DNA of 64,000 nucleotides from Paenibacillus sp. GTDB lineage: Bacteria; Bacillota; Bacilli; Paenibacillales; YIM-B00363. The stretch lies in contig NZ_JAPSKE010000031.1 in the NCBI RefSeq assembly GCF_031177825.1, forward strand, positions 1-64,000, in the 5' to 3' direction. This document shows positions 7,998 to 47,142 of this stretch, in pieces; position 1 is the first letter of the stretch; each line of letters opens with the position of its first letter. A program made the position numbers and the translations under genes. Below the pieces are notes generated by a model, which searched no databases, had not been told where the DNA came from, and saw only the letters and a list, made by a program, of their open reading frames with translations.

Positions 7998-8097
7998 CTT
8001 TCCCGTATACAAGAAAGATGAATATTGCCGGAACCGGCGGCAGAGGGGTACTGTGAGGTCGATCACACATCGACTTCTGCCGAAAGGAGAACGAACC

Positions 8098-9219
8098 TTG
8101 CAACCCAATCACGCGATCGCTGCAGAAGCGAAGAAGCCCGAGTCCGGCGCGAACCGGCGTCCGTTCTGGCGGAACCGAATCGTCAGGCAAAACATTCCGC
8201 TCTGGACGATGTTCTTGCCGGTCGTAGCTTTCTATCTGATTTTCAAGTACACCCCCATGTTCGGCCTGATCATCGCTTTCAAGAACTATACCTTCTACGA
8301 GGGCATCCTGGGCAGTCAATGGGTGGGGCTGGACAACTTCAACAACCTGTTCACGCAGGCGCAGTCGGTACAGATTATTCGGAACACGCTGATGCTCAGC
8401 GTCTTTACGGTGTTCGTCGGCTTTCCGTTCCCGATCCTGCTCGCGATTCTGCTGAACGAGGTGCGCCGGGCCTGGTTCAAGCGCATGATCCAGACGCTCG
8501 TCTACCTGCCGCACTTCTTCTCCTGGGTCGTCGTCGGCGGCATCGTGATCACGCTCTTCTCGCAGAGCGGCGTCGTCAACGCGCTGACGAATCGGCTGTT
8601 CGGCGGCGAACCGTTCGCTTATCTGTACAGCGAATGGGCGTGGATCTCGATCTTCCTCGGCTCCGGCATCTGGAAGGAAGCGGGCTTCAGCGCCATCATC
8701 TATCTGGCGGCGCTGACGGTCATCGAGCCGAGCTTGTACGAGGCGGCCAGCATCGACGGCGCGGGGACGGTGAAGGCGCTGGCGCCGGGCGCGACCGTCA
8801 TTACGGCGACGTACGGCTCTGCGGTCGCCATGTTCGCGCTCGAGGTGCTGCCGGACCGCACCCCGCCGGCATGGTCCGAGGGCGCGGCGCTGACCGCTGC
8901 CGACGTCATGCCGATGGCGATGACGCTGCATTGGCCGGCGGCGATCGATGCCGCGGGCGTCGATCGTTACGAGCTGTCGATGGATGGGCAGACGGTCGCG
9001 GTCGTCCCCGGAAGCGAGCTGGAGCATCGCGTGACGGGGTTGTCGGCGAACAAAGTATACGCGTTCGAGCTTATCGCGGTCGACGCCGGCGGCTTGCGCA
9101 GCGCGCCGTTGTTCGCGGCGCGGCGGTCGCTGCCGGCGCCGCCGAACGGCCCGAGCAACGGACGCGGTCCCGAGTTCGGACATGAACAGGGGAACGGGCC
9201 TCGCGGACTCGGCGACTGA
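8098..9219 (+). CDS. Chimeric protein: sugar ABC permease N-terminus fused to Ig/Fn3-like domain
   Basis: Residues 1 to about 222 are an LplB/YtmP-type sugar ABC permease: N-terminal cytoplasmic stretch, first helix (PLWTMFLPVVAFYLIF), KNYTF, and the MetI-type core down to EAASIDGA, which is the start of the EAA loop that contacts the ATPase. At about base 8765 the frame passes without interruption into an unrelated C-terminus (KALAPGATVITATYGSA, then TGLSANKVYAFELIAVDAGG), which resembles a bacterial Ig-like (Big2) end followed by a fibronectin III-like domain of a surface protein. The last transmembrane helices are missing, so transport is unlikely. The TTG start at 8098 has AAAGGAGAA seven nt upstream. 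It is probably the product of a deletion that joined two genes. Confidence 0.75.
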   Translation: MQPNHAIAAEAKKPESGANRRPFWRNRIVRQNIPLWTMFLPVVAFYLIFKYTPMFGLIIAFKNYTFYEGILGSQWVGLDNFNNLFTQAQSVQIIRNTLMLSVFTVFVGFPFPILLAILLNEVRRAWFKRMIQTLVYLPHFFSWVVVGGIVITLFSQSGVVNALTNRLFGGEPFAYLYSEWAWISIFLGSGIWKEAGFSAIIYLAALTVIEPSLYEAASIDGAGTVKALAPGATVITATYGSAVAMFALEVLPDRTPPAWSEGAALTAADVMPMAMTLHWPAAIDAAGVDRYELSMDGQTVAVVPGSELEHRVTGLSANKVYAFELIAVDAGGLRSAPLFAARRSLPAPPNGPSNGRGPEFGHEQGNGPRGLGD

Positions 9220-9312
9220 CATTTGTCATCAAACGGTAACATTGCCGTTACGGCGCTCTAATATTGGGCATGTATTATAAATGGCAAGACCCCCTTTTTG
9301 AAATATATCTTG

Positions 9313-9349
9313 GGACCTGACGCTTCGGCGGCCAGGTCCACTTTTTTTT
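9313..9349 (+). terminator. Intrinsic terminator after the chimeric gene
   Basis: GGACCTG (9313-9319) pairs with CAGGTCC (9333-9339), followed by AC and eight T residues. The next 170 bases up to the insertion sequence hold no gene I can support. Confidence 0.9.
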
Positions 9350-9511: not shown

Positions 9512-9519
9512 AAAAAAAA
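9512..9519. repeat. A8 target-site duplication, left copy
   Basis: Eight A residues lie directly outside the left terminal repeat of the insertion sequence. Eight A residues also flank the right end at 11196-11203, giving an 8-bp direct repeat. On the minus strand the right copy is the T-tract of the PHP gene terminator. Confidence 0.7.
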
Positions 9520-11195
9520 CTACGACCGACCAATTAACTAACAAGGATTTCCATGTGCCTCTGTCGAAGTATTCATTACCCACTTTGATGGAGGTTTCTT
9601 TATGCCACTACCGAAGAATCGTATCGTACCAACGGATAAAATATACTTCAGACCTGAGTTTGAGCACTGCCTTCATTGCGGTGCCAAGTTAAAGAGAAGT
9701 CATACTGCTTGGAAAAAGAACATCTCCACTCTTCATGGGGTCATACAGGCTTGGAGCATGGCTTATGTTTGTTCCAATGTGAACTGCGAGTATCGGAGCA
9801 CATACTACAAGTCCGCGGAAGCGGATCTGCTTGCTATGAAACATACCTCATACGGCTTCGACGTGCTTGCTCTAGTAGGTCAACTCAGGTTCAAGCAACA
9901 CATGACGATCGCCGAGATCACTGAAGAACTCACGGAACGTGGGATTGCCACATCCGAGCGTAATTCCCAACGCTTGTATGAGCGGTATCTAACGTTGCTG
10001 CGTTCTAGCGTCACGGATCACGTGAAGGATGAACTCAAGCAAGTTGTAGAAACGAACAGCGGAATCATGATCTCCATGGACGGCGTTCAACCCGAGAAGG
10101 GAAACGAGACGTTGTACGTAGTCCGGGAAGTGTTTAGCGGCACTATTCTAGTTGCGAAGAGTGTGAAGAGCAGTTCAACGGCCGAACTTAAAGAACTCAT
10201 ACAACCGATCATCGATCTTGGCTTTCCCATCATTGGAATTGTTACGGATGGTCAGCAGTCCATCCGGTTGGCTATGGAGGAGTTGCTTCCCGACGTTCCG
10301 TATCAGTACTGCCAGTATCACTACTTGAAGGACATTGCCAAGCCCATCGTCGATCTGGATCGCAAGCTCAAGACAGGCATAAAGAAGAGCCTGCGCGGTA
10401 TTCGAGAGATCGAAAGAATACTCGACAAGAGTACTTCTGAAGAATCCGAAGTTGTGAAGGATTACTTGGCAGCCGTCCGCTCTGTGCTCCTCGAAGACGG
10501 TAACCCTCCATTAGACTTGCCCGGCATTCGGATCTACGAAACTGCCGAAGTCATTCAGGCATCTCTCCAAACATGCCTGGATAAAAAAGGGGCCCTCGCT
10601 ACTCCAAAACGTATTCAGAATATTCAACAAACTGAGTGAATTCCGCGGGCTCTATGAAGAGGTAAAGCGCTGGTCGCAACCTTTGCATCACGTGGCAAAC
10701 ATCTTAAACCCAACGCTCGACCAATCCAGCGAGTCCGTACAGCTACAAATGAATTGTCTTTTGAATTGGCTCGAGCAAACGTACACCGAAGAAGCCGACC
10801 AACTCATGGTTAAAAACTTCATGAGCTACACAAAAGGCTTTTGGAAAGGGCTCTTTACTTGCTACGACCACCCTCATGTCCCCCGTACCAACAACGACCA
10901 CGAAAGATTTTTTAGAAAGACCAAAACACGTCATCGGCGAATGACAGGATTGAGAAGCTGGAACGAATACATCGTTCGTTCCGGGGAGTTTGTTGTCTTC
11001 GTCGATGATGCCCTCCGTCAGAAGGACGTCCTTAAACGACTTCAAAGCGTTAGTTACAATGTGTTCCGAGAAGAACGTATTCGGTGGTCCAATCGCTTGG
11101 AAGAAACAACAAAGCGTCGCCGCTTCCGCCGCGACCCACAAAAGTACCTTCAAGAGGCTGAATCCAAGTATTGTGCGTTAATTGGTCAGTCGTAG
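9520..11195 (+). mobile_element. Complete 1.68-kb insertion sequence inserted in a terminator T-tract
   Basis: The ends are inverted repeats: the left end begins CTACGACCGACCAATTAAC and the right end read inwards begins CTACGACTGACCAATTAAC, one mismatch in 19. A8 tracts flank both sides. Inside is one DDE-type transposase gene, now split by a frameshift. The transposase stop codon TAG is the last three bases of the element. The right end abuts the T8 tract of the minus-strand PHP gene terminator. I cannot assign it to a named IS family with confidence. A short non-autonomous relative lies at 46706-46997. Confidence 0.85.
9602..11195 (+). pseudogene. DDE transposase, frameshifted
   Basis: The first part (345 codons from 9602) has an N-terminal four-Cys zinc-binding region (Cys 23, 26, 57, 62) and the first two acidic catalytic positions (MISMDGVQ, Asp160; GIVTDGQQS, Asp216). 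The rest is in the +1 frame from about 10590 to 11195 and carries the third acidic residue in NNDHERFFRKTK. The switch occurs at the homopolymer AAAAAAGGGG (10585-10594); removing one base restores a single frame of about 530 codons. A +1 shift is not the usual programmed type for transposases, so this is more likely decay or a sequencing error. A GGAGG ribosome site precedes the ATG. Confidence 0.8.
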
Positions 11196-11243
11196 AAAAA
11201 AAAGCGGCACTGACACCGGAACGTATCCGATGTCTGTGCCGCT
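11196..11243 (-). terminator. Intrinsic terminator of the PHP gene, invaded by the IS at its T-tract
   Basis: On the minus strand AGCGGCAC (11243-11236 side) pairs with GTGCCGCT (11210-11203 side), followed immediately by eight T residues and then by the insertion sequence. Further GTGCCGCTTCC copies next to the stem look like local repeats of the same arm. Confidence 0.88.
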
Positions 11244-11272: not shown

Positions 11273-12079
11273 CTACAGCTCCACCAACACGCGCTCGCGG
11301 CGGCGGAAGTAGCACCATTCGCGGAAGCCGATTTCCTTGAGCCGTCCGCGGACGAACTCCCAATCGTCGGCGACCCGCTCGGGCACGTGCGCGTCCGAGC
11401 CGAACGTCACCTTCACGCCATGGAACAAAGCGCGCTCGAGCATGTCGTCGGCGGGGTACCAGCCGCCGACGTCTTTCATTTTCCCCGAAGTGTTGATCTC
11501 GATGGCGATGTCGCATTCCCCGATCAGCTGCAGCGTCTTGTCGACCGCCTCCGTCTGAATGTCCGAGAACGCCGGGTAATACGCCTTCATCGCGTCGATA
11601 TGTCCGAGGATGTCGAACATGCCGCTCTTCGCCGAATGGCCGATCAGCTCGTAATACCGCTCCTTGGTTTGCTGCTTCTGCTTCTCGGTCAGCTTCTTCC
11701 ACCGGTTGCGGTTGAAGATGGAGACGCCTTCGACCTGATGGACGGAGCCGATAATGTAATCGAACGGATATTTGGCGTAGATGCCGCGGTATTTCTCCGC
11801 ATGTTCGGGGAAGAAGTCCGATTCGACGCCCAGCAGCACTTCGATGCGCCCGGCGTACTTCGCCTTCAGCTGAAGCACCTCGTTCACGTAGTTCGCGAAT
11901 TCGCTCGTCGCCATGGCGATTCCCGGGTTCGGGTGATCGTCCTTGTGGCCGAAATACGGCGAATGATCCGAAATGCCGATCGCGGCGACGCCCTTCTCGA
12001 TCGCGGCTTCGATATATCGTTCGATCGGGCCGTCCGCGTGGCCGCATCGTTCGTGATGCGTATGTAAGTCGAACATCAT
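11273..12079 (-). CDS. PHP-domain histidinol-phosphatase-like hydrolase
   Basis: A 268-residue PHP-domain phosphoesterase. It begins MMFDLHTHHERCGH, with the HxH metal pair at residues 6 and 8, followed by GISDHSPYF, GVESDFFPE, GSVHQVEG, DILGHIDAMK and GSDAHVPER, the ordered metal-ligand segments of the HisK/HisJ group. It is expected to be a cytoplasmic monoester phosphatase, classically for histidinol phosphate; with no his genes nearby the substrate is open. AGGAGG precedes the ATG. It follows the LysR gene with a 13-bp gap and is likely co-transcribed with it. Confidence 0.87.
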   Translation of the reverse strand: MMFDLHTHHERCGHADGPIERYIEAAIEKGVAAIGISDHSPYFGHKDDHPNPGIAMATSEFANYVNEVLQLKAKYAGRIEVLLGVESDFFPEHAEKYRGIYAKYPFDYIIGSVHQVEGVSIFNRNRWKKLTEKQKQQTKERYYELIGHSAKSGMFDILGHIDAMKAYYPAFSDIQTEAVDKTLQLIGECDIAIEINTSGKMKDVGGWYPADDMLERALFHGVKVTFGSDAHVPERVADDWEFVRGRLKEIGFREWCYFRRRERVLVEL

Positions 12080-46658: not shown

Positions 46659-46671
46659 TCGCGTAAGCGGG

Positions 46672-46705
46672 AGCGGGGCGGCCTTGTGCCGCCTCGCTTT
46701 TTTTT
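46672..46705 (+). terminator. Intrinsic terminator of the binding-protein gene, invaded at its T-tract
   Basis: AGCGGGGCGGC (46672-46682) pairs with GCCGCCTCGCT (46688-46698), followed by a T8 run (46698-46705). The next base is the first base of the MITE. Confidence 0.9.
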
Positions 46706-46997
46706 CTACGACTGACCAATTCACGCACACGGATCGTCCTAATTTATAGCTCACTACTAAGATGAAACTCATGTTGTGCGGCCAGTTGGGGAGGAGTTCC
46801 TCAATTTTCGGGGTGGCATGCCCTAATGATTGCGGAGAAGCGCCCCAATTTATAGCTCACTACCAAGATGAAACTCGTGTTTTGGGGCCAATTGGGAGGA
46901 GTTCCTCATTTTTCGGGGTAGGATGCCCTATTGATTGCGGAGAAGCGCCCCAATTTATTGCGTTCCTGATTTCTGTTAGCGGATTGGTCGGCGGTAG
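46706..46997. mobile_element. 292-bp MITE related to the insertion sequence at 9520-11195
   Basis: The left end begins CTACGACTGACCAATTCACG; the right end, read inwards, begins CTACCGCCGACCAATCCGC. They match the two ends of the insertion sequence at 9520-11195: the left tip resembles that element's right end (with GCACAC following), and the right tip its left end (with CTAACA following). T8 precedes and T7 follows, a target duplication of the same kind. Inside are two tandem copies of a 105-106-bp unit and no credible gene; a 98-codon frame across it is a by-product of the repeats. Confidence 0.75.
46741..46960 (+). repeat. Two tandem 105-106-bp units inside the MITE
   Basis: Unit 1 is 46741-46846 and unit 2 is 46847-46951, about 88 percent alike by eye, followed by the first nine bases of a third copy. 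Each starts AATTTATAGCTCACTAC and ends GCGGAGAAGCGCCCC. Length is not a multiple of the helical or codon period in any telling way. Confidence 0.85.
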
Positions 46998-47142
46998 TTT
47001 TTTTGCGTCGGTTGGCTGCGCCTCGGAGGTTGCTTCCGCGCTTCGCTCGGCGGTTTAGACGGAGAACTCCCTTTAAAGCTTGGGAATGCGCCTTTTTGCA
47101 TCCAAGGGGATACTTCCCACGTAAGTATAAATCGGAAGTTAT

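Follow-up and report, generated by a model that had tools for sequence, protein, structure and literature searches.

An insertion sequence with a split-frame Mutator/IS66-like transposase found in A:T homopolymer tracts, many of them behind intrinsic terminators

Class C (IIC) group II introns insert directly after rho-independent terminators and so spare genes (PMC8919778), and IS1272 inserts in hairpin stems without a target duplication, deleting part of its target (PMC4923244, PMC5678879). The p-MULT group of transposases, with the members IS256, ISH6, ISLre2/TnGBS, ISKra4 and ISMich2, is defined by a D, D, E triad, a C/D(2)H motif 11-19 residues after the second aspartate (D2), a helical insert of 99-138 residues between D2 and E, a terminal C, inverted repeats of 18-39 bp and an 8-9 bp duplication (PMC3942029). 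Here we describe an insertion sequence (IS) of 1,676 bp, at positions 9520-11195 on the forward strand of the window, by which we mean the whole 64,000-nucleotide stretch of Paenibacillus sp. DNA that was analysed. Like the IS1182 family and IS1272, the element and its relatives are found at terminators in both orientations; unlike them, they leave the hairpin intact and duplicate an 8-bp T-tract. Group IIC introns are retroelements without a DDE transposase, inverted ends or a target duplication, all three of which are present here. With p-MULT the element shares the catalytic triad, the terminal C, the inverted repeats, the 8-bp duplication and an N-terminal DNA-binding region, and with ISMich2 also a split, frameshifted gene. 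A C(2)H motif, C237xxH240, follows D2, with 20 residues between D2 and C. However, the D2-E spacing is 217 residues rather than 99-138, its target is an A:T homopolymer entered in no fixed orientation, and the frame change in the family is mostly +1, not -1. Members of TnGBS/ISLre2/ISKra4 also have a gene-sparing target, but it lies upstream of promoters (PMC3942029).

The C-terminal RTNN..E region of the transposase matches IS66 (5e-14). Elements of the IS66 family have an 8-bp duplication and N-terminal cysteines, and the present element has both; unlike IS66 it lacks the accessory genes tnpA and tnpB (not universal there), since its two reading frames, orfA and orfB, fill it. Against the NCBIfam profiles the transposase falls under every cut-off (52.2 bits vs 180 for the IS66 family transposase NF033517, and 39.4 bits for IS256_Zn_var and 24.6 bits for IS256 vs 150), while orfB alone reaches 24.7 against the cut-off of 23.1 for Pfam DDE_Tnp_IS66 (PF03050). 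RefSeq places a relative from Rhodovastum in ISNCY and annotates its coding sequence over 1510 nt, a length that fits a +1 join, but ISNCY stands for 'not classified yet', a label that implies no particular mechanism. The transposase is Mutator/IS66-like and filed in no named family. Our search of the open-access literature found no description of a homopolymer- or T8-specific IS.

The two elements of the window and their host sites

The ends of the IS are defined by a 16-bp left terminal inverted repeat, CTACGACCGACCAATT (9520-9535, plus strand), whose pairing continues to about 19 bp, and by a right repeat at 11180-11195 (minus strand) that reads CTACGACTGACCAATT when inverted and AATTGGTCAGTCGTAG in top-strand letters. 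Together with the duplication these ends delimit an architecture common to more than 50 relatives. A8 flanks the element on both sides, at 9512-9519 and 11196-11203, and the right copy is at the same time the T8 of the intrinsic terminator of a PHP-domain gene (11273-12079, minus strand), whose hairpin lies at 11204-11242 on the minus strand. The fold, A/T tract included, has -34.6 kcal/mol and a shuffle z of -9.2. The first-pass annotation had placed the right tip of the element against this T8, had read A8 on both sides as the duplication and had taken the transposase stop codon as the last three bases of the element (TAG, 11193-11195), and all of this is borne out by coordinates and fold.

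The second element of the window (46706-46997, plus strand, 292 bp) is non-autonomous and MITE-like, with IS-type ends, no transposase and an internal repeat of about 105 bp. It follows a second terminator at 46670-46705 (plus strand; hairpin and T8, -28.2 kcal/mol), the T8 being 46698-46705, and the far copy of the target duplication is a T7 at 46998-47004 (plus strand). The earlier description of a related element in the same position of an unrelated terminator is accurate for the site, but the relatedness extends to the terminal inverted repeats only; the interiors are unrelated, and the short element's DNA matches 24 places in the genome, the IS not among them. The orientation relative to the hairpin is indeed the same in both elements, but this is uninformative because T-tracts lie 3' of hairpins and any insertion into one shows it automatically. 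Both terminators predate the insertions, since sister genomes have empty sites: a hairpin with A9 in G003 for the IS, and the orthologous terminator with T6 and no short element in G002.

Several further observations concern these regions. The interior of the short element, here and at 23 further genomic sites (L108-L131), consists of the approximately 105-bp repeats in variable copy number, and such repeats are also present without recognisable ends. In sister genome G005 the start of many contigs falls some 20 bases into the terminal repeat of these elements (L317-L322, L328-L330), which points to many recent copies at which the assembly breaks. Beside the PHP gene, a non-coding block at 9216-9349 (plus strand), with the order TTTGTCATCAAA ... 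GCAAGACCCCCTTT ... GGACCTGA-hairpin-T8, is conserved in four congeneric genomes far above the adjacent DNA; it has no match in Rfam and is possibly a promoter and a small RNA with its terminator. The open reading frame at 8053-9219, read by eye, combines the N-terminal part of a sugar-type ABC permease with an Fn3-like tail and looks like a fused or decayed gene.

Split transposase gene

The transposase gene consists of two overlapping frames. OrfA (9602-10639, plus strand) carries zinc-binding cysteine pairs, the catalytic residues D160 and D216 and the motif C237xxH240, and orfB (plus strand, +1 frame), which opens at 10515 and runs to 11195, carries the catalytic E434 within RTNNDHE. In the alignments, distant relatives included, D160 and D216 are invariant in 19 orfA rows and E434 in 19 orfB rows, and C237 and H240 are invariant among the orfA rows aligned. 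The overlap contains the frameshift site GAT AAA AAA GGG G (10580-10592, plus strand), which is common to relatives. Because the third catalytic residue lies in the second frame, a full-length DDE transposase needs a frameshift at the A6-7G run, and from the sequence we infer that expression of the full-length protein in cells would be controlled by frameshifting. Gene decay was considered as the cause of the split and rejected, since the arrangement of the frames is common to many relatives and always lies around an A6-7G run. Most relatives have a shift of +1 (or -2), and four (L066, L072, L076, L078) have one of -1 at the same run; the direction of recoding thus seems to have switched within the family, and a +1/-1 switch at one A6-7G run offers a natural comparison for recoding studies.

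Structure prediction gave poor models of the frame-joined protein when orfA and orfB were aligned separately (mean pLDDT 52 and 51). In these low-confidence models the D2-E segment is helical, and the match to retroviral integrase cores in Foldseek is taken only as an indication of an RNase-H-like core. The only convincing relative of solved structure is 6xg8, a 'Mutator family transposase' (E 2e-5).

Target tracts, terminators and the choice between them

Relatives were gathered from named genomes (50 loci), from whole genomes (35/399 of the order) and by further searches; none was found in viral contigs or phages. Insertion ends were set by the inverted repeats alone and not by the T-run, which gave 57 usable non-redundant two-ended insertions; the counts exclude three loci (L032, L037, L046) whose ends were false or chimeric. 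In 53 of the 57 the two flanks match each other at 7 or more of the 8 positions. In 37/57 a perfect T8/A8 stands on both sides and in 11 more the match is at least 7/8, so that 48/57 lie in a T/A homopolymer, with run lengths at the copies of 7-18. The first control set has 90 tracts of T8 or longer in 1.48 Mb, both strands counted, or about one every 16 kb, and the insertion pattern is therefore far above chance. About nine insertions have mixed W-rich targets (TTTTGAAA, TTTTAAAA), such as the TTTTGAAA duplicated 8/8 at L030; relatives in Nostoc duplicate GATAAAGA (as at L133) or GTTAAAAT, and one copy in Microvirga has TACCTAC. Distant relatives with 33-38% identity, on plasmids of Rhodovastum, Roseomonas (two), Microvirga (two) and Deinococcus (two), whose hosts have 59-71% GC, still show, beside one end or both, T/A runs of 6-8, and their ends have the form CTA...TAG. 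As far as these sequences tell, the target is best described as an 'A:T tract', and only part of the family keeps to it strictly. The T strand coincides with the transposase strand in 22 insertions and is opposite in 29 (p=0.40), and at hairpins the split is 14:14; an oriented mode of insertion was rejected on these counts.

The first-pass annotation had proposed that the transposase recognises a terminator hairpin together with its U-tract. For comparison with ordinary tracts, drawn from the same genomes and loci and called non-coding from open reading frames without annotation, we counted the best hairpin that ended within a few bases of the T-run and reached -8 kcal/mol or lower, at the 51 sites with an unambiguous T strand. 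A hairpin stands at 28/51 IS sites and at 46/88 control non-coding T8+ tracts (55% vs 52%, p=0.86), at 12/64 coding T8+ control tracts and, on the far side of the tract, at about 10%. Stratified by genome group, with one-sided sites of the element's own genus added, the odds ratio is 1.35 (95% CI 0.69-2.6, p=0.48), and the own-genus sites show 17/20 at hairpins vs 11/15 tracts; the upper confidence limit of 2.6 still leaves room for a modest hairpin preference. Of 742 control runs of hairpin plus T (2.2 Mb), 97 reach T7 or more and the other 645 stop at T4-6; the IS-occupied terminators have T7+ in 22 of 23 cases (p=6e-18). Because the hairpin share equals that of the controls and the occupied terminators are nearly all T7+, the target is the A8:T8 tract, and terminators receive insertions because about half of the intergenic T8+ tracts belong to them. 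In this genome the hairpin-bearing share of non-coding T8+ tracts is 11/15 (73%), so that the 7/8 readable short-element sites at hairpins are as expected. Of the original proposal, then, the strict T-tract, the duplication of T8 and the position of many copies directly behind a hairpin stand, and the recognition of hairpin and orientation falls; the expectation that most copies would follow a hairpin in one orientation gives way to little more than half and an even split.

Our preferred explanation, which we hold with high confidence, is an IS whose split-frame Mutator/IS66-like DDE transposase inserts specifically into A:T homopolymers of about 8 bp and does not need the hairpin. The idea that the transposase recognises the terminator as such, either hairpin plus U-tract or a paused or terminating RNA polymerase, draws on the positions of both window elements, of most short elements of this genome and of 28/51 relatives behind hairpins, and on the scarcity of hairpins on the far side of the tract. 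Nevertheless, hairpins are equally frequent at ordinary non-coding tracts, 23/51 sites have none, orientation is random and terminators with T4-6 are essentially never used; in its strong form the idea is already refuted, and overall we regard it as improbable. We give the same low weight to a variant in which the transposase would couple to transcription termination and the T8 tract would be recognised when opened, or as a weak rU:dA hybrid at a paused polymerase, with a modest preference for hairpins.

Insertions as we see them are survivors of selection and not a record of raw target choice, and only 9/46 are in coding sequence vs 64/152 of T8+ tracts (p=0.005). This depletion could be taken to mean that insertion is merely biased to AT-rich DNA and that the T8 pattern reflects survival in harmless T-tracts after genes, but selection cannot give rise to the 8-bp homopolymer that is duplicated at 48/57 sites, AT-rich intergenic sites without a homopolymer are far commoner and hardly used, and T/A tracts still serve as targets where host GC is as high as 71%, all of which makes this account very improbable. 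Least credible of all is that the homopolymer flanks belong to the element or arose by expansion of the run after insertion. The variable run length would agree with it; however, the empty sister sites already have the run beside the hairpin, ordinary 8-bp duplications occur at L030 and L133, and T and A strands alternate in orientation.

We therefore place the element among the Mutator/IS66-like IS elements as a variant that targets homopolymers, and not as the carrier of a terminator-recognising transposase. For a DDE transposase, a pure 8-bp A:T homopolymer is an unusually simple and strict target, and it is retained from Bacilli through to Alphaproteobacteria and Deinococcus. The first-pass view that such insertion avoids breaking genes holds as an outcome, reached without recognition of genes, promoters or hairpins, as sequence habits of the host do the targeting. 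This calls for caution in general about claims of 'terminator-targeting' elements, and insertion into defined homopolymers is a possible tool.

As for mechanism, the staggered cut brackets the homopolymer, exactly so in most copies, and thereby turns the tract itself into the 8-bp target duplication, as is seen directly in the sequences. The two near-identical ends are used regardless of the direction of the tract; insertion depends on run length, and within the power of the sample the terminator hairpin is unnecessary and gives no detectable added preference. We propose that the transposase reads the stiff, narrow-grooved shape of the A-tract directly, and that short elements may be mobilised in trans through the shared ends. 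Copies are common behind terminators because most non-coding T8 tracts in these genomes serve as U-tracts of intrinsic terminators and, probably, because insertions into coding tracts are lost by selection, which fits their rarity. Insertion would rebuild a full T8 on the hairpin side and leave the terminator intact, and the second T8 could serve as a fresh target. In genome G075, which has 19 matches, an IS copy immediately adjoins the T8 duplication of a second copy (L153/L175), the arrangement to be expected if every insertion creates a new T8 target.
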